Virus record (IMG/VR): IMGVR_UViG_3300037041_001506
Coordinates: 1 to 34,572 of that record
DNA: 34,572 bases
Source: a virus
Strand: one strand, 5' to 3'
Position numbers and translations under genes: made by a program. Below are positions 1 to 34,572 of the stretch, piece after piece. The stretch's first letter is position 1, and every line of letters begins with the position of its first letter. The notes beneath the pieces were generated by a model. That model had not been told where the DNA came from. It saw only the letters and a list, made by a program, of their open reading frames with translations, and searched no databases.

Positions 1-127
1 AAGTAGCTATTAATACGAAGGTAAATGCAGATAGGGTACCAACGGTACCGTCTATATTCCCTGTACTTACACCACCGTATGCTACTGCTAATGCTCCTGG
101 CGTGGTTGTTACTATAGTAAGAACAAC
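1..127. repeat. Terminal direct repeat, left copy
   Basis: These 127 bases are identical to 34446-34572. The length equals a common assembler k-mer, and a fibre gene reads in frame through the join. The repeat is therefore best read as the overlap of a circular assembly, not as a physical phage end. The unique genome is 34,445 bp. Confidence 0.95.
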
Positions 128-7515: not shown

Positions 7516-9462
7516 TTACATTGATTGGTCCATTGTCATTTGTTCTTGCGGCATCGTGTCCAGTTGATCTTCATAGCCTTGTGTCATTTCCGGGGGTGTT
7601 CCTTCCGGGGGCGACGGCATCCTTGCTGTATCTATTGTTGGGTTTGGTCCCTGTCCCGGCGCTGGGGGCATGCCTGGGGGCGGGGGTGGTGGCATCGGTT
7701 GGCCAGATAAAACCGCTGCAAGTTCGGGGGGAACCGCCTTCATCATATTGATATGATCCATCATGTGGGCAAGCCCGATCGCCGCAAGCTGCGGGTTTTC
7801 CCTTTCGATGGGATCCGAATAGATCTTGTTGTGCCCTACGATATGTTCGGCGTGAAGGTCCGTAAGCATAATAACCGGCGTTTGGCCTTTTCTTAGCATT
7901 TCATTTTCAGATTTGATCAGAACCGAGTTCGAGAAATCCGATTCGATTTCTTGATCAAGGTTACCGGTCGCCAGGAATGAAATAACCTGTTTTGGGTTAG
8001 TGATAACCCCGTATTGCTGCCAAGATTGCATGAGCTCATGGCGTCCAGATACGGTTTGCGTCATGGGATTTCCAAGATCCACCGAAACCCTTTCGACATC
8101 CATCAAATCCGCCGCTTTAAACGTTTTGATCTGTCCCTTCTTACTGTCCCCCACGATATAAGCAGTCATTTCTTCTGGGCAGAACTTTTTGATGTTATCG
8201 ATTAGACATGTCCCTACATCCCCGGCAAGCTTTGCATAGGATTTCTGCAGATGAGAGACATATTGTATTGCCTGGGCAATGTATAAAGCCTGTCCGCCCG
8301 ATGTCTTTATATTTGGATTTCCTGCCCCTCTTGCAATGTCATTCACGCCCGATAAAAGCTGTTGATCTGCTTTCATGAGTTCAAGCATTTTGAAGTTTTC
8401 GGCAGCGCTACCCGTTAGATTAAGCGCCTGGGGCGGGGAAGCGGAAGTAACCAAGGTTTGCCCATCCGATAGCTTGCGGGTTGTCAGGTTTGGATCTGCC
8501 GACCATATAAGTTGAACCGAGTTATTCAGGTTGTTTGTTACTGTCCCAGAGTAAAGCGAGTTAATTGCTTCTTGCAAGGGAACAAGTTCCACCGTCGGAC
8601 TATCGCCGTACACGGTTTGAAGGAAATCCCCGGCAGTAATGCGAAACAAGGGAACCTTCGCGTATTTCATCGTTTGGTCTAACAATACCTGACCGGCGCA
8701 TATTTCGACAAGCCGCCCCTCGGGTAGGGATGGGGTTCGCCTATGCATGAAAGTATATTTATAGGTGAAATCTTCTTCATCGTCTGACGTGATTATTGTT
8801 TGAATGTCGTTTGGATCTTCATCAATACCGGAAGCTTGGATTTCAAACGCGAAATCTGGGTATTGTGAAGCTAGATCAAACTTGTTTACCTTCTCTCTTA
8901 CGATATGCCATGGGCTTTCCTTCGATATTGTGCATTTCGCCACATCAAACGGCGAAAAGGTGATAAATCGTTGATCCCCCGTTTTAACCACCTGGCTACC
9001 ATCAACCCCGAGCTCAAACCCTTCCGAATAACTCCAAGGACAATAGACATAATATTCAAGCATGATGAGCGCCCCAAGAACCGATTCTGATAGGGTTTCA
9101 TTCATGCATTTTTCATCGTTGTAGTATTCCACAATCCCTTTTGCTAAATCAGATTCGATCGATGATTTCGAGTCCGAGTTCCGGCTACGGGCAGTAAAAG
9201 AGAGTTTGCTTTCGGTGACAAGGATATGAAGCCGACGGACAAGCGATTTGAAATGGTTCACACGGATTCGCGCTACTTCCTCGTCGTCCCTTGTGATCGT
9301 TAGCGTTCCATCTTCATTAAAGCCATAAAAAGTATCGTATGTAATTTTAATGCGCCCGCCATACCCGGACGTAACAAGCCATTTTTTGTATTCATCAAAC
9401 TTCGCTTCGATTTCATCGGCGATTTCTTCAATTGGGGCCGCCGCCCAAAAACGATTATCCAT
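7516..9462 (-). CDS. Portal protein
   Basis: This 648-residue protein lies directly downstream of the large terminase and overlaps it by 8 bases (AAAGGG is the ribosome site), so it is probably translationally coupled. The length fits podovirus portals. The first 130 residues are helical and charged (EIEAKFDEYKKWLVTSGYGG). The middle contains the stem/wing region, with FSPFDVAKCTISKESPWHIV and then LFRITAGDFLQTVYGDSPTV. A long helix follows around residues 375-450 (GGQALYIAQAIQYVSHLQKS). The C-terminal 70 residues are Pro/Met/Gln-rich (PPPPPPGMPPAPGQGP) and probably disordered. Twelve copies would form the DNA channel at one capsid vertex and bind both terminase and neck adaptor. Identification rests on gene order, size and the characteristic mixed helical pattern. 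Confidence 0.85.
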   Translation of the reverse strand: MDNRFWAAAPIEEIADEIEAKFDEYKKWLVTSGYGGRIKITYDTFYGFNEDGTLTITRDDEEVARIRVNHFKSLVRRLHILVTESKLSFTARSRNSDSKSSIESDLAKGIVEYYNDEKCMNETLSESVLGALIMLEYYVYCPWSYSEGFELGVDGSQVVKTGDQRFITFSPFDVAKCTISKESPWHIVREKVNKFDLASQYPDFAFEIQASGIDEDPNDIQTIITSDDEEDFTYKYTFMHRRTPSLPEGRLVEICAGQVLLDQTMKYAKVPLFRITAGDFLQTVYGDSPTVELVPLQEAINSLYSGTVTNNLNNSVQLIWSADPNLTTRKLSDGQTLVTSASPPQALNLTGSAAENFKMLELMKADQQLLSGVNDIARGAGNPNIKTSGGQALYIAQAIQYVSHLQKSYAKLAGDVGTCLIDNIKKFCPEEMTAYIVGDSKKGQIKTFKAADLMDVERVSVDLGNPMTQTVSGRHELMQSWQQYGVITNPKQVISFLATGNLDQEIESDFSNSVLIKSENEMLRKGQTPVIMLTDLHAEHIVGHNKIYSDPIERENPQLAAIGLAHMMDHINMMKAVPPELAAVLSGQPMPPPPPPGMPPAPGQGPNPTIDTARMPSPPEGTPPEMTQGYEDQLDTMPQEQMTMDQSM

Positions 9463-10789
9463 AAGCTAACCCTTTTATTTGTTTAATATGTTCAGGATCT
9501 TTTGGGATAAAAAATATGTTTTCACGTTTTGGTTTTGGTCTTAAATCGGTGACTCGATCCACACAACGAAGCGCATATATCGCAGCTGCCGCGGCATCGC
9601 AATGTCCCAGCGCTTGGCTTCTTTCGTAGTCTGTCCGTTGTTTGTTCAATAGACCACCTTCAATAGTTCTTATAAGTAATTCGCATTCTGGGTTAATAAT
9701 AGCATGATTGTTATAAAAAGCGTTATTAAACAATAAAAGCCCTGCCCCGAAATCGTCCTTCGCGGGCAAAGCTGCAGGCAAACCCAATGATGAGTAGTCT
9801 ATCAATAGCTGACCTGTGGCGTCGAGTATTAGAGTAAGATGATCCGGCCATTTTTCTTTTACCTTGGCTACGATTACAGATGTTGGCGTGTTGTTGTTAA
9901 ACCATAGCTCGGATCTGAAGATTACCCGCCCGCTTCTATGACACCACCCGGCTTCCAGGAAAACGGACAAATCTTGCACACCGCCCGAATCCCCGAATAA
10001 CATCCATTTGATATCCGAAGGGACAAGCGCCTGGACATGAATATCTTTATTAAACGATGGGGCAATACATCGGTTAGTATCGACAAGTATCTTGCAAAAG
10101 AACTCCCTCTGCGCTGTTATCGAAAATTCCCCGCCCACTTCATCTAGTAGCCGTTGCCGCTCACTTGCTGGCAAATCTGATATCGCATCGATCGTGAGCT
10201 CAACGTAAGAGTTCTTTGCCTTTGCTTTTGGGATAAGTTCTTTACTCCAAAAATGTTCCGGTGATTCTGGGGGCGTCGATGGGAAAATGAGTTTGAATTT
10301 TCTTTTCATCGTAGCCGGGACAATGATGGACCGATAAAGATATTCTAGATTTTTGATAAATGCCGCTTCATCGACTATCAAAAGATCTATATTGTTTCCC
10401 CTAAGCGCGTTTGCATTCTTATCAAGCCCTACGAGTTTGATCACCGACCCGTTGCGAAAATGATACTCTTTTTTGCTCGCCTTCCAGATGGGCCTAAGAT
10501 CATCAGGGCAATCGGTAAGAACCCATTCAAATATGGGGCAGATAAAGTTCTCAAGATCCGATAAAAAGGCAGTCGAGTATAGGATCTTTTGCTTTTTTCT
10601 TAACGCCTGCTCAACGGAATAAGTAGCGCAGGTTGTCGATTTTCCAAGCCGCCTAGAAATATTAAACACGGCTAGGTCTACAGCTATCGAATCGATCAAT
10701 TTAAGAAGGGTTTTCTGTTCGGGCCGTAGCTTCCATATAAGGACACCCCGCCGCCATAACTTCGCAATTGTGCTAGCTCTTTCGTTCAT
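9455..10789 (-). CDS. terL: Terminase large subunit (packaging ATPase and nuclease)
   Basis: This 444-residue protein powers DNA packaging and cuts the genome concatemer. The ATPase half shows a Walker A variant SRRLGKST (residues 45-52, Lys50) and a Walker B NIDLLIVDEA (Asp140, catalytic Glu141). A coupling motif STPPESPEHF follows near 171. The nuclease half has the three acidic positions of the RNase H-like fold: LFGDSGG (Asp267), LILDATG (Asp323) and ALGHCDAAAAA (Asp398). The length is typical. It overlaps the small subunit by 4 bases (ATGA) upstream and the portal by 8 bases downstream, so the three are translated together. The packaging style (pac or cos) cannot be told from the sequence. 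Confidence 0.95.
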   Translation of the reverse strand: MNERASTIAKLWRRGVLIWKLRPEQKTLLKLIDSIAVDLAVFNISRRLGKSTTCATYSVEQALRKKQKILYSTAFLSDLENFICPIFEWVLTDCPDDLRPIWKASKKEYHFRNGSVIKLVGLDKNANALRGNNIDLLIVDEAAFIKNLEYLYRSIIVPATMKRKFKLIFPSTPPESPEHFWSKELIPKAKAKNSYVELTIDAISDLPASERQRLLDEVGGEFSITAQREFFCKILVDTNRCIAPSFNKDIHVQALVPSDIKWMLFGDSGGVQDLSVFLEAGWCHRSGRVIFRSELWFNNNTPTSVIVAKVKEKWPDHLTLILDATGQLLIDYSSLGLPAALPAKDDFGAGLLLFNNAFYNNHAIINPECELLIRTIEGGLLNKQRTDYERSQALGHCDAAAAAIYALRCVDRVTDLRPKPKRENIFFIPKDPEHIKQIKGLAYG

Positions 10790-11110: not shown

Positions 11111-11368
11111 CTACTTGTGCAGATTTTTGAAATGAAGCGCTAAATTCACCTGCTGTAATTCGGTTTCAATAGCGTCAATTCTTTTAAGTTCCGATAGCTT
11201 GCCATCGTTTTTAAAATATAGAAGGATTTCATCAAGCGATCTATTCACAGATATAATTGCCAACACGGCAATCGCATACGGTGATTTAAAAATCGCCGCC
11301 GCAAGAGTCGCATAGCAAACTACCGCATAGATAAACGCATTGTCTAAAATCCGCCTACATTTATGCAT
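11111..11368 (-). CDS. Small membrane protein
   Basis: This 85-residue protein has hydrophobic segments around residues 10-27 (DNAFIYAVVCYATLAAAIF) and 30-40 (YAIAVLAIISV). It probably forms a helical hairpin in the inner membrane. Its charged C-terminal tail (KLSELKRIDAIETELQQVNL) looks like a short coiled coil. It overlaps the gene upstream by 8 bases and lies 22 bases before the small terminase. Size and topology would allow a holin, but the endolysin is over 5 kb away and a second coiled-coil/membrane candidate exists at 32702-32911. No family is recognised. Confidence 0.65.
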   Translation of the reverse strand: MHKCRRILDNAFIYAVVCYATLAAAIFKSPYAIAVLAIISVNRSLDEILLYFKNDGKLSELKRIDAIETELQQVNLALHFKNLHK

Positions 11369-11639
11369 CGTATTCCCCTTCTGGAAGCATGCCCGATATT
11401 TCTTGGTTTCTGAGCGCCGCCCAGATCCCTCGTGAACAATGCCCTACAGAACTTGCGGCAAGATCCCCCGCTTTTTGGAGTAGCTTCACGCCAACCACAA
11501 TGCCTTTGTAAACTTCGATTTCTACCGCGACATATAAAAGATGATTCACTTTTGCCGTTGAAAAGAACTTGCCCGACACCTGAATGGGAAGCGCTGGGGC
11601 TTCGGGCTTATCCTCAGTCTTTTTGATGATCTTGCTCAT
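11361..11639 (-). CDS. Hypothetical protein, 92 residues
   Basis: This small protein is of unknown family. The first 20 residues are charged and Pro-rich (KKTEDKPEAPALPIQ). A beta-like core follows (GKFFSTAKVNHLLYVAVEIE, then YKGIVVGVKLLQKAGDLAAS), and the end contains CSRGIWAALRNQEISGMLPE. There is no membrane segment or signal peptide. It overlaps the upstream gene by 26 bases and the downstream gene by 8, so the three small genes between the zinc ribbon and the terminase form one tightly packed operon segment. Coding potential is supported by the overlaps and by the uninterrupted minus-strand order; function is unknown. Confidence 0.65.
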   Translation of the reverse strand: MSKIIKKTEDKPEAPALPIQVSGKFFSTAKVNHLLYVAVEIEVYKGIVVGVKLLQKAGDLAASSVGHCSRGIWAALRNQEISGMLPEGEYDA

Positions 11640-11910
11640 TCGTTGTCTCGCTTGTGCTATAGATATTATTTAGCTCTAGGGCCAGGGATTGCAATACTGT
11701 GTCCACAGAATTTTTCAACTCTGGGTGATCACCGATAAGTTTGTCGAGTGTGGTTCCACATATGGACAGAGCGTTTCCTGCGGCCCGGAGTATATTCCCA
11801 GTGGGCTTTTTTCCCACTAGGTTATCGAGAAGCAGGTATGTAACAAGTGTGGCTTCCATAAACTGCAGCGCGTGTTCTTTTCGGTTTAATCGGACAACTT
11901 TTCCGCTCAT
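11614..11910 (-). CDS. Hypothetical helical protein, 98 residues
   Basis: No family is recognised. The protein is largely helical, with an amphipathic or semi-hydrophobic stretch (FMEATLVTYLLLDNLVGKK) at residues about 17-35, then ILRAAGNALSICGTTLDKLI and a Leu-rich segment. It ends in a polar tail (TSETTNEQDHQKD). CTTGAGGA lies upstream of the start. It overlaps the next gene by 26 bases, an unusually long overlap in this genome, and both frames appear to be used. It is the first of a trio of short genes between the multi-enzyme protein and the terminase. A DNA-packaging or regulatory helper role is possible from position only. Confidence 0.65.
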   Translation of the reverse strand: MSGKVVRLNRKEHALQFMEATLVTYLLLDNLVGKKPTGNILRAAGNALSICGTTLDKLIGDHPELKNSVDTVLQSLALELNNIYSTSETTNEQDHQKD

Positions 11911-12055: not shown

Positions 12056-15040
12056 TTAAAAACATGCGCTTTTTACCGACGTATTTTTCACACTACTGGG
12101 ATCTGTCACCATTACTTCTAGTCCCCATCCCGATAGGGTTGAAAACGATTGTCCGCTATCTGTCGTCATTGCGTGCTTCATGCAAGCCGATGCATTGTCC
12201 CAAGACCAAGGAAGATACCCGACACCATTCTTTTGCGCCTGGGTGATGATCTCTTTATATAGTATGGGGGTTTTGCAATCCACCGCGCTTTCCGCAAATT
12301 CAGAAACGACAAACGGGATTTTAAGATCGGCCATCGCTTTATAGGTTTTCTGGATCCGCTCTAAACTCTGATCTGTCCACCACATATGTAGCCCAAACAA
12401 TACATTCGCGTCGAGTTTCATAAGTTCCGGCGCAGCGGCAGCAATCGATAGCTCATCTTGTCCGCAACTACTGGCATCTATGAGAATCGGAACCTTGATA
12501 CCCGCTGTTCTTAGTGCAGTAATTGCCCGTTTATATTCTGATATGTATTCAGAGTAGGGAAGCCCTGAATATCCCATTTCGTTTGCAAAATTAACGATCA
12601 AATACTTTTGGTGTTTCTTGATCAAAGCCACAACATCGGGCTGCGTCCACCAAGCGATCACTTCGCTTACGTCTTTAGCTGACCACATACAAGTTTTATC
12701 CCACAATCCCACGATAGGGATCATTTTGTTATCAACTGCGGTTTTGATTGCGGCATCTAGCTGGGAAACGGTGACCGCCGGAACATCCTTATTCGCATCT
12801 TTAACAACCCAAGATATCCTGACCGAGTTTGCTCCAGTTTTGGCGATTTCACCAAACATTGGAGCCCCATCTCTTGGCGTCCCCGTCCAATCTGTCCAAA
12901 CTGTCATTTGGTTCACGCCCCGAAGTATCAAATCTTTTCCACATGCGTCCTGCAGTCCTGTCCCTTTTACACGAATCGTATCATTTGGAGTCGGAGTCGG
13001 CGGAATGGGCACGGGCGATAACTCTTTGATCTTGGCAAAAATCAGAGCGCCAATTTTGTTATTTCCATCCGTTGAGGGATGAATCCCATCTACCAAATCG
13101 GTTTTTCCCAGCGCTGAAAAGACATCTACAACCTGGATCTTTTCGCCCCGGTTTTGTCTGATTTTGACTAGATCTTTTATGCCTTGATTATAGATGGAAA
13201 CTACAGAGTCCCGGTTTCTGCCGTCAGGTGGGATCGTAACGCCAACTTTGGAAGCGTCGGCGTTCGGTCCCCCTTCGGGTGGAATCGTAGCGACAAATAT
13301 CATGCCATCTGGGGAATTTGCTTTTACGCGATCCAAAATCGTACTTAAGCGAGTTACAACGTCAGTTTCTTTTTCGGCGATCCACCAAGCAACATCATTG
13401 GTTCCGATCATTACAATTGTAAGTTCTGATTTTGGGATCTTAGCAAGCCAGCCCACGATTTCATCTAGCGTATTTACCGTAGTATAGAAGCTATGTCCAT
13501 CATGTTTTGGTTGTGGAGTCTGTGGATATTCATCTGTTAAGGATCCGATGAAATCGGGTTTAAGGTTTGCTGACACCATCTCGTGATAGATAAACGCCCG
13601 CCATCCTGGGTTGTTCGTAATCGAATCGCCCACGGTGTGGATCTGCAGCGCCCCATCTTTGCCGTAGTCAAGCCCCGCCGTGGGAGTCGGTTCTGGGGGC
13701 GGGGGGCATGGAGTCGGTGGACAGGGTTTTGGTTCCGGACATGGCTTGGGATCGGGGCATTTACATTTGCAGGTACATGTCGCAATCCCAGCAGTTTCAC
13801 CTAATATTTTTTTTTTTGCTGATTCTAGCTCTTTTATTTTAACCTTGTAGCCGTCAAATGCCATGACAGCTACCTGAGTTGTGGCTTGCGCGGTTCCGCA
13901 TTTGTTTTGCGCCGTGATCGTAAGAGTTTTGGTTGATGTCGGAGAAAATCTAATGATCGATTCTTTCGGAGTCGCGCCGCCATTAAATGCCGGGTTTGCT
14001 ATCCACTTGTAGGACGTCCCATTGATCGCCTTGGTCCCCATCATGAGAGTTGATCCGGCGCGGATCGATACTGTAGGACCATAGCCGGTTTTTGCGATAG
14101 GCATTGGATCACATGGTGGGGGTGGATCGGGCGTGGGATCTGGAGTAGGATCTGGATCGGGGGTGGGATCTGGATCGGGCGTGGGATCTGGATCGGGCGT
14201 GGGATCTGGAGTAGGGTCTGGATCGGGGGAAGGATTTCCATAGACAACATAGTTCGATTGGGCGCCGATTTTATTCGCACCGAATTTGATTCGCATGTAT
14301 CCCTGTTCGCCCCACTGGGTTCCCCAAGAGTTCCGCATGATCCAATAGCCGTCGCCCCAGCCTACAACGTTCGTTGCATGGTTTAACTCTGTGGATCCAT
14401 CCCCCGACCATATGCCGCCTGTGTAATTCGACATCCCCTGAGAAGCTGCGACACCCACAGAAATAGGACCATGGGCATAGATCGCTTCTTTCATGCTCTC
14501 TACGGATGGGTTATCACCGCCGGGAAGGTAAGCCCATGAAGAAATCTTCTCATGATAAGTAAGCCCACTTTTGCAATTGTCATCTCGTCCGGTATAAGCG
14601 TAGTCGGTTTCGTTTATGCCGCCCCAAGATCCCATGTGCATTTTATGGGCATCGAAAAAGCCGCCCTGGCATCCAAAATCTGTCCCGATGTAGCTTTTGT
14701 TGCAATCCACTAAATATTGCGCCGATAGCGGGCGATTGATCTTAGCAATCGCAAGAGAATCGGAGAATGTCGCTACGATACTCTGCGCCCAACAGGATCC
14801 GCAGTTACCTTGGTTTTTTATTGGAGAAAGCGTAACTTTCTGCCGCCAATCGAATGTTGCTGGAACCTTCATCCCCCTCGGAAGATCGCCTTTCGCGGAT
14901 CTGACAGTGTGAGGAACAAAGTTCTTTGGAACGATTAACCCGGTATAATACTTTTTTCCAGTCTTAGATGTTAATACCGTGACACCATACGCGGGAAGCG
15001 AGACAACCCAAAGCAATACCAAAAATTTGATGATAGACAT
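12056..15040 (-). CDS. Secreted four-domain enzyme: C1 peptidase, Ig-like, SGNH esterase, GH5 glycosidase
   Basis: This 994-residue protein starts with a Sec-type signal peptide (residues 1-19, ending SLPAYG). Residues 55-268 are a papain-family peptidase: Gln77, catalytic Cys83 in NQGNCGSCWAQS, His221 in LNHATN, Asn237 in RNSWGTQWGEQGY. No long inhibitory propeptide is seen. Residues 271-307 are Pro-Asp/Thr repeats. About 315-395 is an Ig/PKD-like domain, and 421-448 a Cys-Lys-Pro linker. About 455-675 is an SGNH hydrolase resembling CE3 acetyl-xylan esterases: GDSIT (Ser473), GTND (Asn548), DGIHPS (Asp651, His654), with HDGHS in between. About 685-990 is a GH5 hydrolase: LRGVN, FANEMG (acid/base Glu821), LHMWW (His885), VVSEFAE (nucleophile Glu914). 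It would hydrolyse proteins, ester groups and beta-glycans outside the cytoplasm. Whether it is a virion part, a matrix degrader or a lysis aid is unknown. AAGGGGA precedes the start. Confidence 0.92.
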   Translation of the reverse strand: MSIIKFLVLLWVVSLPAYGVTVLTSKTGKKYYTGLIVPKNFVPHTVRSAKGDLPRGMKVPATFDWRQKVTLSPIKNQGNCGSCWAQSIVATFSDSLAIAKINRPLSAQYLVDCNKSYIGTDFGCQGGFFDAHKMHMGSWGGINETDYAYTGRDDNCKSGLTYHEKISSWAYLPGGDNPSVESMKEAIYAHGPISVGVAASQGMSNYTGGIWSGDGSTELNHATNVVGWGDGYWIMRNSWGTQWGEQGYMRIKFGANKIGAQSNYVVYGNPSPDPDPTPDPTPDPDPTPDPDPTPDPDPTPDPTPDPPPPCDPMPIAKTGYGPTVSIRAGSTLMMGTKAINGTSYKWIANPAFNGGATPKESIIRFSPTSTKTLTITAQNKCGTAQATTQVAVMAFDGYKVKIKELESAKKKILGETAGIATCTCKCKCPDPKPCPEPKPCPPTPCPPPPEPTPTAGLDYGKDGALQIHTVGDSITNNPGWRAFIYHEMVSANLKPDFIGSLTDEYPQTPQPKHDGHSFYTTVNTLDEIVGWLAKIPKSELTIVMIGTNDVAWWIAEKETDVVTRLSTILDRVKANSPDGMIFVATIPPEGGPNADASKVGVTIPPDGRNRDSVVSIYNQGIKDLVKIRQNRGEKIQVVDVFSALGKTDLVDGIHPSTDGNNKIGALIFAKIKELSPVPIPPTPTPNDTIRVKGTGLQDACGKDLILRGVNQMTVWTDWTGTPRDGAPMFGEIAKTGANSVRISWVVKDANKDVPAVTVSQLDAAIKTAVDNKMIPIVGLWDKTCMWSAKDVSEVIAWWTQPDVVALIKKHQKYLIVNFANEMGYSGLPYSEYISEYKRAITALRTAGIKVPILIDASSCGQDELSIAAAAPELMKLDANVLFGLHMWWTDQSLERIQKTYKAMADLKIPFVVSEFAESAVDCKTPILYKEIITQAQKNGVGYLPWSWDNASACMKHAMTTDSGQSFSTLSGWGLEVMVTDPSSVKNTSVKSACF
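14120..14230 (-). repeat. Pro-Asp coding minisatellite
   Basis: These are tandem imperfect units of about 12-18 bp, read on the plus strand as GGATCTGGATCGGGCGTG, encoding PDPDPT/PDPT repeats in the linker after the peptidase domain. Copy number is likely to vary by slippage or recombination. The linker would be extended and flexible and would tether the catalytic domains apart. Confidence 0.85.
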
Positions 15041-15834: not shown

Positions 15835-16587
15835 TCAGTTTTTTTTTTCATTCGATAATGGTACTACAAAATCTTCTAAGTTTAAATTTTTACCAAATGG
15901 GGCCGTTTTTCTTCCAGACCAGTTATCCCCAAACTTGGATCCACCCGATTCTAAGTGATACGTGTAAAATTCTGGCAGTAACACCCGTCTTTCTCGGGGC
16001 CATTGAACCGAGAAAAGGACGTCCGAATGCTCGGCGTTGCCCGCAATGATTGGATACGTCCGCCGCTGAGATGAATGGAACAACTGAAAAAACCCTAGTG
16101 GAACCCAGCCATATTCCTTATGAACAATCCTTGATCCTAAAGGGAACTCCGATTGTGGAGTGACAAGAAACCGCCATGCGTGTTGCGGGCAAATCTTGTG
16201 CTTGTTCTTCTCCCAGTTTTCGAATGACACACTATTTAGCCGATCACAGCCATAGATGTTCTTCTTGTCCAGTTTTGCCGCGTCAAGGCATCGGCGAAAC
16301 CTATGCGGCAAAAGAATGTCCGCGTCCATATGAAGTACCCAATCATCATGCCTAAGATGCGATAGTCCCAAATTTATTGCGCGCCCTTTATTAAAGCGAT
16401 CCCCATCATCATGAAATATATCGGTTTTTATACAATCAACCGAGTATTTATCGCATAGTTTCCCGGTCCTTTTGTCGTCTGGGTGTGTCACTACGACAAG
16501 CCTGTCGAGTAGCTCTATGTTTTCCGGGAGTGTGTGTTCTAAGAAATCACTATAATTGTAGCAAACTACTACAGCCTCAATTTTCAT
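15835..16587 (-). CDS. Glycosyltransferase, GT-A fold (family 2-like)
   Basis: This 250-residue protein begins IEAVVVCYNYSDFLEHTLPE, the nucleotide-binding first strand and loop of family 2 transferases. It has the metal-binding Asp-x-Asp motif in VLHMDADILLP near residue 90, preceded by NKGRAINLGLSHL, the usual acceptor-side helix. The family moves a sugar from a nucleotide-sugar donor to an acceptor. In phages such enzymes modify the host surface antigen, phage DNA or virion proteins. It overlaps the amidase gene by 4 bases. The last codons contain an A10 run (15839-15848); a +1 slip would add about a dozen residues and end just before the next gene. Acceptor and donor are unknown. Confidence 0.85.
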   Translation of the reverse strand: MKIEAVVVCYNYSDFLEHTLPENIELLDRLVVVTHPDDKRTGKLCDKYSVDCIKTDIFHDDGDRFNKGRAINLGLSHLRHDDWVLHMDADILLPHRFRRCLDAAKLDKKNIYGCDRLNSVSFENWEKNKHKICPQHAWRFLVTPQSEFPLGSRIVHKEYGWVPLGFFQLFHSSQRRTYPIIAGNAEHSDVLFSVQWPRERRVLLPEFYTYHLESGGSKFGDNWSGRKTAPFGKNLNLEDFVVPLSNEKKN

Positions 16588-17027
16588 CCGTCCGCCTTGA
16601 TTAATTTTTTAAACAAATCCATGTCGATCCCTGGACACGATTTATTCGGGTTAAAATGATTGTGAGCATACCAATTTTTCACACTAAAATTAAACATTAA
16701 ATTTATCTGTCGGTACAACGTCGATAGGGATTCGATCTGGAACCGAGAAGGTGATTTCATTCCCACGTAGCACACTCCAATTGACCTGTGGTTCTCGTGT
16801 GCGCAATGCGCCCCCATCTCAACGAAATCCTTAAGACAATCGCGGCCAGATTGGATTAGGCCCGCTCTTGTTACGACGAAATGATAGCCTACTTTTCTAA
16901 AACCTCTCTCTTTATGCCATTTTTCTATATCCAAAATTGTGAATTTATCAAATCCGCTATCGGTTTCTACAAAATCGGGTGTGGCAGAACAGTGAAGGAT
17001 CACAATTTCCGGTTTGATAAGAGACAT
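16584..17027 (-). CDS. N-acetylmuramoyl-L-alanine amidase (T7 lysozyme-like endolysin)
   Basis: This 147-residue protein has the complete Amidase_2/PGRP pattern. Zinc ligands are predicted as His12 (ILHCSAT), His122 (YAHNHFNP) and Cys131 (NKSCPG). Tyr48 (GYHFVV) and Lys129 correspond to the catalytic Tyr and Lys of T7 lysozyme. GAHCAHEN and SIGVCYVG are further family signatures. The length is close to T7 lysozyme (about 150). It cuts the bond between muramic acid and L-alanine in peptidoglycan. There is no signal peptide or membrane segment, so a holin would be needed for release. GAGGA precedes the start. It follows the replication gene, and whether it also binds an RNA polymerase, as the T7 protein does, is unlikely because no phage polymerase is present. 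Confidence 0.93.
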   Translation of the reverse strand: MSLIKPEIVILHCSATPDFVETDSGFDKFTILDIEKWHKERGFRKVGYHFVVTRAGLIQSGRDCLKDFVEMGAHCAHENHRSIGVCYVGMKSPSRFQIESLSTLYRQINLMFNFSVKNWYAHNHFNPNKSCPGIDMDLFKKLIKADG

Positions 17028-18693: not shown

Positions 18694-19179
18694 ATGCAGG
18701 TTATAGGGATTGATCCAGGGAAGCATGGATGCATTGTAGCGCTTGATAGCGACACCCATGAAGCCCATTGGCTTAACATGCCATTTCGAGAAGATGGGAT
18801 TCTTGACCTGGGTATCATAAACACCAAAGTGAAGCCCTATTGGTCTGGGATGATCTATCTGGAAAAGGTACACGGTAGATCTGGCTGGGGCGCTACCCAA
18901 GTGTTTGGGTTCGGCGTGAACTATGGTCAGGTACTTGGCTGGCTACACGACAAACCGCACACTCTAATCACCCCAAAGAAATGGCAATCAATAGCCCATG
19001 TCGGAACATTTGGTGAAAATCCCAAACTTAGGTCACACCAATCATTCATTCGGCTTAACCCATCGACAACGATCCGTAAGAAGGACAATGGGCTTATCGA
19101 TGCGTTCCATATAGCGCGGTTTGGTCTGTTTTTTAACGGGGTTCAATTCCGCGATGATTGGGAATTTATCGGGCTTTAA
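18694..19179 (+). CDS. RuvC-like Holliday junction resolvase
   Basis: This 161-residue protein opens with VIGIDPGKHGCIVAL (Asp7), the first strand of the RuvC/RNase H fold. It continues with IYLEKVHGRSGWGATQVFGF (Glu57), VNYGQVLGWL, HTLITPKKWQ and NGLIDAFHIARFG (Asp136, His139). These are the motifs of phage RuvC-like resolvases, and the acidic residues hold the catalytic metal ions. The enzyme cuts four-way or branched DNA, which clears recombination and replication intermediates before packaging. It complements the exonuclease and ERF protein encoded on the other strand. It ends the plus operon, with a strong terminator about 90 bases downstream. Confidence 0.9.
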   Translation: MQVIGIDPGKHGCIVALDSDTHEAHWLNMPFREDGILDLGIINTKVKPYWSGMIYLEKVHGRSGWGATQVFGFGVNYGQVLGWLHDKPHTLITPKKWQSIAHVGTFGENPKLRSHQSFIRLNPSTTIRKKDNGLIDAFHIARFGLFFNGVQFRDDWEFIGL

Positions 19180-32701: not shown

Positions 32702-32911
32702 TTAGCTCCCTTTTAAATTAGTAATAAGATAGATGATCAATCCTACAATAATCGGACCCACTACCACGATAAACCCGGTCTTTATAACCCCGATTTGGGT
32801 TTCGTTTACTACCGTTTTTTGATTATACCTATCAAGCTTTTCATCGATAGAATCTATCTTAGTTTCTATACGTAAAATCGTGGGTTCTTGTCTGCATTCT
32901 ATATGATCCAT
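32702..32911 (-). CDS. Coiled-coil plus single-membrane-segment protein, possible holin or XhlA-like
   Basis: This 69-residue protein has a charged N-terminal coiled coil (LRIETKIDSIDEKLDRYNQK) and one C-terminal membrane segment (TGFIVVVGPIIVGLIIYLIT) ending in NLKGS. This is the layout of small lysis-associated XhlA-like proteins and of class III-like holins. The amidase lacks a signal peptide and would need such a partner. The gene overlaps the stop of the upstream 55-residue gene (TAATG) and abuts the acidic-protein start. It lies in the late strand, after the fibre genes, where many podoviruses keep lysis genes. The holin call is from topology only. Confidence 0.6.
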   Translation of the reverse strand: MDHIECRQEPTILRIETKIDSIDEKLDRYNQKTVVNETQIGVIKTGFIVVVGPIIVGLIIYLITNLKGS

Positions 32912-33090: not shown

Positions 33091-34572
33091 TTATCTTATT
33101 GCATTTTGCAAGGCTTCAATTTGCGCCTGTTGTTCTTGTATAGCTTTAATGAGAGGGGCAATAAGCTCACTGTAGCCAATACTTAATACGTCTTCACCGC
33201 CATTTATAGCGTGGTTCTGAAATCCCCCGAAATCCACACCATCTGCAGCTATGATAGATTGTACTTCCTGCGCTATTAATCCGTGATGGTATCTAGTTCT
33301 TTTTTTAGATCCATCATGAACTAGACCGCCCATTTCGTTGGCTTCAGACCATGCCGATACGGCTGCCTTATAAGCTTGTAATTCTTCTTCTGTCGGTTCG
33401 CCCGCAGGAACTTGTGGTTTAGGCGATTTATATTCCTCTCTAATATCCCATTTATAATCTACAGGTCTCAACTTACAGATAAAATCCAAACCTAATACAG
33501 TATCTCTGATATCCGCTTTATCCCTAATATCTGACCTAGACTGTACTGTTCCATAGACATATACCGTTGTTGCAGAGTCCCCTAATTGGACCTGATTGTC
33601 CCCTGTAATCTGTGCGTTGTATCCAATGCCGGAGCAATTTGAGTAAGTTACGTTGTCGTCCAGGGATTGATACCCCAAGGCTGTATTATATCCACCTGTA
33701 GTATTTAGGTTTAACGCTTCTTTGCCTACCGCTACGTTATAAGCGCCAGATGTATTAGCCGTCATAACGTTATGACCAACCCCTGTGTTATAACTGGCGG
33801 TATTGTTATACATACCGAAGTATCCAATACATACGTTGCCATTACCTGTAGTATTTAAATAACAGGTACTAGACCCAAGGAGACAGTTTTCATATACAGA
33901 AGTTCCAGTATATCCAGCTTGGTTTCCGAAGGCTGTGTTATGGTATCCGGTGGTTAGACCTAAAAGGGATGCTTTTCCGTTAGCTGAGTTAGAGTATCCA
34001 GTAGTACAGTTATTAAGAGCTGCATGACCAAAAGCCGTTTGGTTAGATCCTGTGATGTTCAATTTTAATGCGTCTTTACCTAAGGCTGCGTTGTTAATTC
34101 CAAATATATTAGCGGACATTGCATACGATCCTACAGCGGTATTTTGAATCCCATTGGTAGCTGATAATGCCTTATACCCAACTGCAGTATTATCCCTTGA
34201 GACTACGTTATATTTTAATGCCTCTACCCCGAATGCAGTGCAATCTATACCAGATACGTTGTTTTTCTGAGCGTCTATACCCATTGCTGTACATGTAGCG
34301 CCAGTAGATCTAATTTCTATACCTAAAGCAGCGGAAGCATTGTTAATATTTAGTGCCGGAGTGGTGGCAGTTATCTGGGTTATACTGACGTTATCAATAG
34401 TTCCAGCCCATGCAGAATCAGGTGTTAGTGTAAGACCCGCTGTAGAAGTAGCTATTAATACGAAGGTAAATGCAGATAGGGTACCAACGGTACCGTCTAT
34501 ATTCCCTGTACTTACACCACCGTATGCTACTGCTAATGCTCCTGGCGTGGTTGTTACTATAGTAAGAACAAC
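33091..34572 (-). CDS. Tail fibre with collar domain and S74 chaperone, C-terminal part (continues from base 1)
   Basis: This is the rest of the 824-residue fibre whose N-terminus is at 1-1120; bases 34446-34572 duplicate 1-127. Residues about 428-675 consist of 21-25-residue repeats of the type NTAVGYKAL, NTAVGSYAM, QTAFGHAAL, NTALGYQSL, an Asn-Thr-Ala-x-Gly unit that builds a trimeric beta-solenoid or beta-roll like adhesin heads. From about 676 it is an S74 intramolecular chaperone: SDIRDK (Ser678, Lys683, the spacing of the self-cleaving pair), LDFICKLRPVDYKW, HHGLIAQEVQSI and a final coiled coil (APLIKAIQEQQAQIEALQNA). The chaperone should drive trimer folding and then be cut off. The repeats probably form the receptor-contact shaft. 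Confidence 0.9.
   Translation of the reverse strand, partial: VVLTIVTTTPGALAVAYGGVSTGNIDGTVGTLSAFTFVLIATSTAGLTLTPDSAWAGTIDNVSITQITATTPALNINNASAALGIEIRSTGATCTAMGIDAQKNNVSGIDCTAFGVEALKYNVVSRDNTAVGYKALSATNGIQNTAVGSYAMSANIFGINNAALGKDALKLNITGSNQTAFGHAALNNCTTGYSNSANGKASLLGLTTGYHNTAFGNQAGYTGTSVYENCLLGSSTCYLNTTGNGNVCIGYFGMYNNTASYNTGVGHNVMTANTSGAYNVAVGKEALNLNTTGGYNTALGYQSLDDNVTYSNCSGIGYNAQITGDNQVQLGDSATTVYVYGTVQSRSDIRDKADIRDTVLGLDFICKLRPVDYKWDIREEYKSPKPQVPAGEPTEEELQAYKAAVSAWSEANEMGGLVHDGSKKRTRYHHGLIAQEVQSIIAADGVDFGGFQNHAINGGEDVLSIGYSELIAPLIKAIQEQQAQIEALQNAIR
34446..34572. repeat. Terminal direct repeat, right copy
   Basis: Exact copy of bases 1-127. It shows that the contig closes into a circle, and the bases should be removed when the genome is circularised. 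Confidence 0.95.

Follow-up and report, generated by a model that had tools for sequence, protein, structure and literature searches.

The 34,572-nucleotide virus contig IMGVR_UViG_3300037041_001506, referred to here in its full length as the window, carries one reading frame, P0001, for a predicted secreted protein of 994 residues in which a papain-type (C1) peptidase and an immunoglobulin (Ig)-like domain are followed by an SGNH/GDSL esterase and a glycoside hydrolase of family GH5 (Table 1). The frame opens with an ATG, a few bases downstream of an AAGGGG-type ribosome site. A preliminary description of the locus had delimited this frame, without giving its strand, and had named the catalytic residues of the three enzymes; the frame is as described and every residue is found at its number. 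The profile searches which that description had proposed also bear out the three enzymes, each match exceeding the curated Pfam cut-off: Peptidase_C1 (PF00112) at residues 59-263 (E=1.9e-49, 169 bits against a cut-off of 20.7, profile positions 1-215 of 220), Lipase_GDSL_2 (PF13472) at residues 470-660 (E=2e-12, 48.4 bits against 32.9) and Cellulase (PF00150, GH5) at residues 701-951 (E=3.9e-13, 49.9 bits against 23.5). The Ig/PKD-like domain of the same description stands as a modelled six-strand beta domain (predicted local distance difference test, pLDDT, about 83-94), its Pfam matches being sub-threshold only (PKD_6, E=0.015). A first AlphaFold model of the full protein was weak (pLDDT 60) and left the SGNH domain unresolved, so that domain packing is not claimed here; the matches listed by fold searches, in which the Ig-like part was not used as a query by itself, are to the C1 and GH5 domains only. 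The linker between the Ig-like and SGNH domains contains a run of Cys-X/Cys-Pro repeats (CTCKCKC...PCPEPKPCPPTPC) which could form disulfide links between chains.

Table 1. Features of the window and of the fusion protein encoded by P0001
Feature	Position	Strand	Remarks
Direct terminal repeat	1..127, identical to 34446-34572	n/a	127 bp, exact
Terminase large subunit	9455..10789	-	downstream of fusion gene
P0001, whole frame, secreted C1-Ig-SGNH-GH5 protein	12056..15040	-	994 aa
GH5, mannanase-like (residues 681-994); E821, E914	12059..13000	-	Pfam; closest solved structures beta-mannanases
SGNH/GDSL esterase (residues 461-680); S473, G515, N548, D651, H654	13001..13660	-	Pfam; 5b5s, 2vpt
Predicted helix 399-418, then Cys/Pro-rich linker (residues 396-460)	13661..13855	-	
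Ig/PKD-like beta domain (residues 310-395)	13856..14113	-	six strands; homologous in phage and Oligoflexales C1-Ig proteins
Pro-Thr-Asp linker, repeated units (residues 269-309)	14114..14236	-	tandem repeats 14123-14227
Peptidase_C1 (residues 59-268); Q77, C83, H221, N237	14237..14866	-	Pfam; ficin, ervatamin, cathepsins by sequence and fold
Short pro-segment, ordered in model (residues 20-58)	14867..14983	-	aligned with C-terminal part of procathepsin/pro-papain propeptides
Predicted signal peptide (residues 1-19; hydrophobic FLVLLWVVSLP, then AYG|VTV)	14984..15040	-	from translation; model helix 3-11
Family-2 glycosyltransferase (GT2)	15835..16587	-	71% identical gene adjoins cassette in phage G006
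N-acetylmuramoyl-L-alanine amidase (endolysin)	16584..17027	-	upstream of fusion gene
RuvC-like resolvase	18694..19179	+	also beside cassette in relatives

The peptidase domain shows the profile match over its whole length, the Gln/Cys/His/Asn residues and the papain fold that define C1 enzymes, and C83, H221 and N237 are invariant in our alignment A5. An AlphaFold model of residues 1-396, built from 33 sequences, has a mean pLDDT of 87.5, with most of the C1 region above 90, and superposes on ervatamin-C with a template-modelling score to the target of 0.91; the VIA Z for the papain fold is about 29. In this predicted model the stretch ahead of the mature domain, residues 21-58, is itself ordered (pLDDT 92-95) and contains strands at 21-24 and 30-33. 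VIA-align places the range 24-267 on residues 62P-215 of procathepsin K (Z 30.8, 233 residues), and the number of aligned residues, 233 for procathepsin K and 232 for pro-papain against about 201 for mature papains, is greater by some 30. The matched stretch of known C1 propeptides is the one that runs through the active-site cleft. Among the phage relatives the segment is conserved as G-x-x-Y-x-T-G-L-x-V-P-x-x-F. Its structural counterpart covers just the C-terminal part of known propeptides, and the inhibitor profile of I29-type zymogens has no match in the pro-region at E values up to 1. The order of the segment in the model and its alignment with the ends of the procathepsin and pro-papain propeptides make it probable that the enzyme is produced as a zymogen with a short pro-segment. 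The preliminary description, which had seen no obvious propeptide, had raised the question of what holds the peptidase inactive. Residues 21-58 correct its view of the propeptide, and on the model a short zymogen segment is the likely answer to its question. Its view that C1 peptidases are rare in phages was likewise too strong, one scan alone having returned 40 viral loci with C1 relatives, while xylellain-type C1A genes have been reported in Myoviridae and Siphoviridae (PMC10380794). The window protein resembles those short bacterial C1A peptidases as a bacterial-type papain peptidase taken up by tailed phages but, compared by description only, differs from them in its Ig domain, its Pro-rich linker, its two glycan-active domains and its relation to an endolysin-linked cassette.

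The SGNH domain combines its Pfam match with the Ser, Gly, Asn and Asp/His blocks of the family. Its closest solved relatives are the acetyl esterase 5b5s (E=3e-13) and the lipolytic enzyme 2vpt (E=6e-8), both of which we take to be CE3 enzymes; they share the SGNH motifs, including GDSIT, GHS, GTND and DGxHP, but belong to other contexts and their similarity is moderate to weak. The GH5 domain in turn combines its profile match with the catalytic residues E821, in an NE motif, and E914, in SEF. Its sequence matches in the Protein Data Bank are mannanases, two of them deposited otherwise (one as an endoglucanase, the other, which its title identifies as a Streptomyces mannanase, as cellulose-binding family II), and mannanases also rank first in the fold search (1wky, 3jug, 2whl), so that by sequence and by fold the nearest characterised enzymes are beta-mannanases. 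The beta-glycan hydrolase of the preliminary description can thus be sharpened to a mannanase-like enzyme, presumably of subgroup GH5_8. With the Bacillus beta-mannanases 1wky, 2whl and 3jug it has in common the fold, the catalytic Glu pair and about 23-25% identity in a match over the whole domain; these however are free secreted bacterial enzymes with a known substrate, whereas the window enzyme is a predicted one. A further GH5 match in a phage database (MT835572, 31%) was set aside, its neighbours being housekeeping-type genes and its contig having the look of a bacterial fragment. That phage GH5 enzymes can be active is shown by a soil virus whose GH5 has been proven to be an endomannanase (Emerson et al., 2018; PMC6786970); set beside the window enzyme by description only, it is similarly a mannanase-like enzyme on a phage contig, but a single enzyme which was treated as an auxiliary metabolic gene.

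With its exact terminal repeats the window appears to be a complete genome, and its terminase, portal-like, major head, amidase, replication-initiation-like, resolvase and exonuclease proteins give it the look of a tailed phage with a P22/SU10-like portal and adaptor. Flanking P0001 on either side are genes with matches in a relative, G001 (terminase large subunit, TerL, 73%; major capsid protein, MCP, 83%; also the small genes at 11111-11910, the amidase and the resolvase), whose own C1-Ig protein is 55% identical to window residues 19-402. Codon usage of every fusion domain lies within the range of the remaining genes of the phage, as does the G+C content at third codon positions (GC3) of the SGNH and GH5 parts. 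Because of the exact repeats, the synteny with G001 on both flanks, the matching codon usage and the occurrence elsewhere of C1-Ig and GH5 as unfused genes, a chimeric assembly is unlikely. That the fusion is unique and its linkers repetitive at the domain joints might favour a chimera or a dead gene fusion, but the single open frame keeps all its catalytic residues and GH5 lies beside C1-Ig in other phages, and we consider such an origin extremely improbable.

The C1-Ig core recurs in other phages. Scans of IMG/VR with C1-Ig alignments returned 17 and then the 40 loci mentioned above, and the full form of C1, Pro-rich linker and Ig was found in about a dozen distinct phage contigs besides the window. 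In 11 of these contigs an amidase lies directly upstream, with no more than about 50 bases between its end and the start of C1-Ig, or with an overlap of the two; a secreted HExxH protein comes next in 10 of these 11, nearly all have a Staphylococcal-nuclease-like gene, and a RuvC-like resolvase usually precedes the cassette. The same-strand order RuvC-like, amidase, C1-Ig, HExxH, nuclease is kept in loci L166-L171 and L184-L196, from phages with different terminases. The HExxH protein has no match in PHROG and only sub-threshold ones among Pfam models, one copy falling just below the cut-off for M48 (20.1 against 20.3 bits). A separate GH5 gene, 48-50% identical to the GH5 domain of the window, lies near C1-Ig in three contigs from two phages (G006, G007 and G008); in G007 and G008 its product begins with a hydrophobic stretch of its own, and its N-terminal region, which falls in no known family, looks like a carbohydrate-binding domain. 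Adjoining the GH5 gene of G007 is a TnpB/IS605-type gene (L112:6189-7220), a possible vehicle for its gain. In G006 the half resembling a carbohydrate-binding module (CBM) and the GH5 half occupy separate frames, and the HExxH protein is cut short and reads HQIGH instead of HEIGH; decay may be under way in both (L109:4862-6291, L109:9157-9735). Contig 3300037041_001257 has just the CBM-like half beside its C1-Ig cassette (L187:3089-3631, minus strand), together with two HExxH genes.

The three-enzyme fusion itself was absent from every other phage record examined, SGNH and GH5 being joined to C1-Ig in the window only. The search of viral metagenomes for the same architecture that the preliminary description had suggested thus recovers the core without the full fusion, and its statement that no phage protein was known to combine all three holds for these records. 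Single-sequence scans of viral contigs with the whole protein, with GH5 or with SGNH gave no relative, a GH5 alignment scan of viral contigs returned only the three contigs already named, and a plasmid search gave no record spanning most of the protein. In the titles and abstracts of open-licence papers we found no report of such a fusion or of an endolysin-linked C1-Ig cassette. To the extent of these papers and records both are new, while phage C1A genes (PMC10380794) and phage GH5 genes (PMC6786970) were already known singly.

The position directly after the amidase in 11 contigs is what would be expected if the protein were a lysis helper. The secreted C1 peptidase, with the HExxH protein of the relatives, would then attack host envelope proteins (outer-membrane proteins, surface layer, lipoproteins) as lysis is completed, doing the work of a spanin, and the sugar enzymes of the window would attack host surface glycans. 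The signal-peptide region of several relatives contains a Cys which might serve as a lipoprotein site, but these sites fit a lipobox poorly. To our knowledge, moreover, the polymers on which GH5 mannanases and CE3-like esterases act do not occur in Gram-negative envelopes. We regard this role as rather unlikely.

Carriers of C1-Ig span at least three unrelated or distant terminases: the TerL of G001, L188 and L192 is 73%, 70% and 27% identical to that of the window, and G007, L184 and L187 have another TerL family. Their C1 domains are nevertheless all about 45-57% identical to that of the window, whatever the terminase. As C1 similarity does not track terminase type, the cassette appears to have been exchanged between phages, probably phages that share hosts. 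In a 50-row C1 tree (a careful run in which the bootstrap had not settled) the 12 cassette C1 domains form one branch (97/91), and a larger group adds all five Oligoflexales/Bdellovibrionota rows (83/97); a long bacterial row inside the phage branch (L051) is probably an artefact. In a quick 99-row tree, six phage rows form a branch with support 99 inside a similar group containing Oligoflexales/Bdellovibrionota. Chromosomal C1-Ig peptidases of these bacteria (L025, L146, L147) share with the window protein the signal peptide, pro-segment, C1 and Ig-like parts, with 46-49% identity over the C1 region, but are cellular genes without the Pro-Thr linker and without SGNH or GH5. The neighbours of the nearest cellular C1-Ig genes look, by eye, like housekeeping genes, and two of the genomes with such C1-Ig genes (G041, G033) also contain relatives of the HExxH protein. 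For TerL and MCP, distant counterparts occur in two prophages, one of Silvanigrella (CP017838) and one of the same phylum (G078). TerL searches of 58 Oligoflexales-phylum and 369 Bdellovibrionota-phylum genomes gave few, distant matches (best 29-32%), and amidase and MCP searches aimed at the host gave nothing useful. Taken together, these relationships make the Oligoflexia/Silvanigrellia (Bdellovibrionota) the likely, not proven, host group. In one Bdellovibrionota genome (G289, locus L161) a terminase-like frame reads through five TAG codons, which suggests either a prophage in which TAG has been reassigned or a copy that has decayed.

The cellular homologues in Oligoflexales would also fit an auxiliary metabolic role, in which the protein is secreted while infection proceeds and supplies the infected cell with peptides and mannose oligomers, and the virus-encoded GH5 endomannanase (PMC6786970) and a chitosanase (PMC9485262) have been described as auxiliary genes of soil viruses. 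The gene is however linked to an endolysin and not to metabolic genes, and no uptake or catabolic gene was recognised in the window, which makes a metabolic role distinctly improbable.

The reading we prefer, with a probability of roughly one half, is that of a lysis-adjacent exoenzyme which dissolves a matrix of protein and acetylated mannan around the host at release. On this reading the product would be an exoenzyme exported through Sec, and the tailed phage that encodes it probably infects Oligoflexia/Silvanigrellia. The core of the protein is the papain-type peptidase, with a pro-segment predicted to run through the active-site cleft, and the Ig-like domain, behind which the CE3-like acetyl-esterase and the mannanase-like domain are attached via Pro-rich linkers; this core belongs to the recurrent cassette of amidase endolysin and C1-Ig, usually with the HExxH and nuclease-like proteins and sometimes with a separate GH5. 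The pro-protein would be exported late in infection to the periplasm or the outside and lose its pro-segment, and when the amidase opens the cell the enzyme would be freed together with the virions. It might then dissolve protein and acetylated (gluco)mannan-type material around the host, be it matrix, sheath, prey or plant debris, the esterase stripping acetyl groups which stand in the way of the mannanase, the peptidase opening the protein part, with the outcome that progeny can spread. The gene order is consistent with this: as the preliminary description had noted, P0001 lies between lysis-type and packaging genes, amidase and terminase sharing its strand, which is presumably the late one. 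The N-terminal hydrophobic segments of the window protein and of its C1-Ig relatives also speak for it. The conserved neighbourhood, in which endolysin, C1-Ig, HExxH and nuclease occur together in many phages and GH5 in some, raises the likelihood that progeny would be freed by degradation of a matrix.

Several points weigh against this reading. In the window the GT2 gene and three small genes stand between the amidase and P0001, the HExxH gene of the cassette is absent and no cassette-type nuclease gene was seen. The SGNH domain is poorly modelled and, among 15 phage records, occurs in the window only, which leaves it with no phage relative. The signal peptide was judged by eye from the translation, and the host comes from gene relationships only.

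Action at entry, as a virion-associated depolymerase, has to be weighed as well. Polysaccharide depolymerases are commonly tail proteins, but P0001 has a signal peptide, lies outside the tail-gene cluster and shows no recognised tail-attachment domain, and the phage has a separate S74 tail-spike-like protein (33091-34284); this role seems very unlikely.

For release through matrix degradation the nearest known way of working is, by analogy, that of baculovirus V-CATH and chitinase, which liquefy the host and aid spread (PMC9965964, PMC3783443). The likeness is one of principle, a viral papain-type protease and a glycosidase breaking down the host for spread; V-CATH and chitinase are two separate genes of an insect virus and unrelated as a system. 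Going further, and only tentatively, a conserved, horizontally exchanged 'dissolution cassette' may serve phages of Bdellovibrionota-type, possibly predatory bacteria by clearing protein, DNA and polysaccharide from the surroundings of the lysing cell, the prey remains that enclose an infected predator being one example, in which case the window would hold its most compact form, one multi-enzyme protein.

Most of the phage depolymerases known so far act on polysaccharides and are bound to the tail, and sugar hydrolases of soil phages are usually read as metabolic helpers. A papain-type peptidase with a pro-segment that stands behind an endolysin in many phages, and in one of them is joined to an esterase and a mannanase, suggests that exported multi-enzyme kits for the post-lysis step are an investment made by some phages, and it makes testable whether such enzymes serve spread or feeding. 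The fusion protein offers a ready-made enzyme with three predicted activities to assay, and the finding may connect phages with the Oligoflexia/Silvanigrellia, a group of which little is known.

Two minor features complete the picture. Two phages whose structural genes are unrelated encode, close to the cassette, an unknown protein of about 291-295 residues (L116:1377-2264; L109:11340-12215, minus strand); the two copies look alike by eye, and one has no match in PHROG. In the window, small proteins with one or two hydrophobic segments, encoded at 11111-11368 and 32702-32911 (both minus strand), are by eye candidates for the holin.

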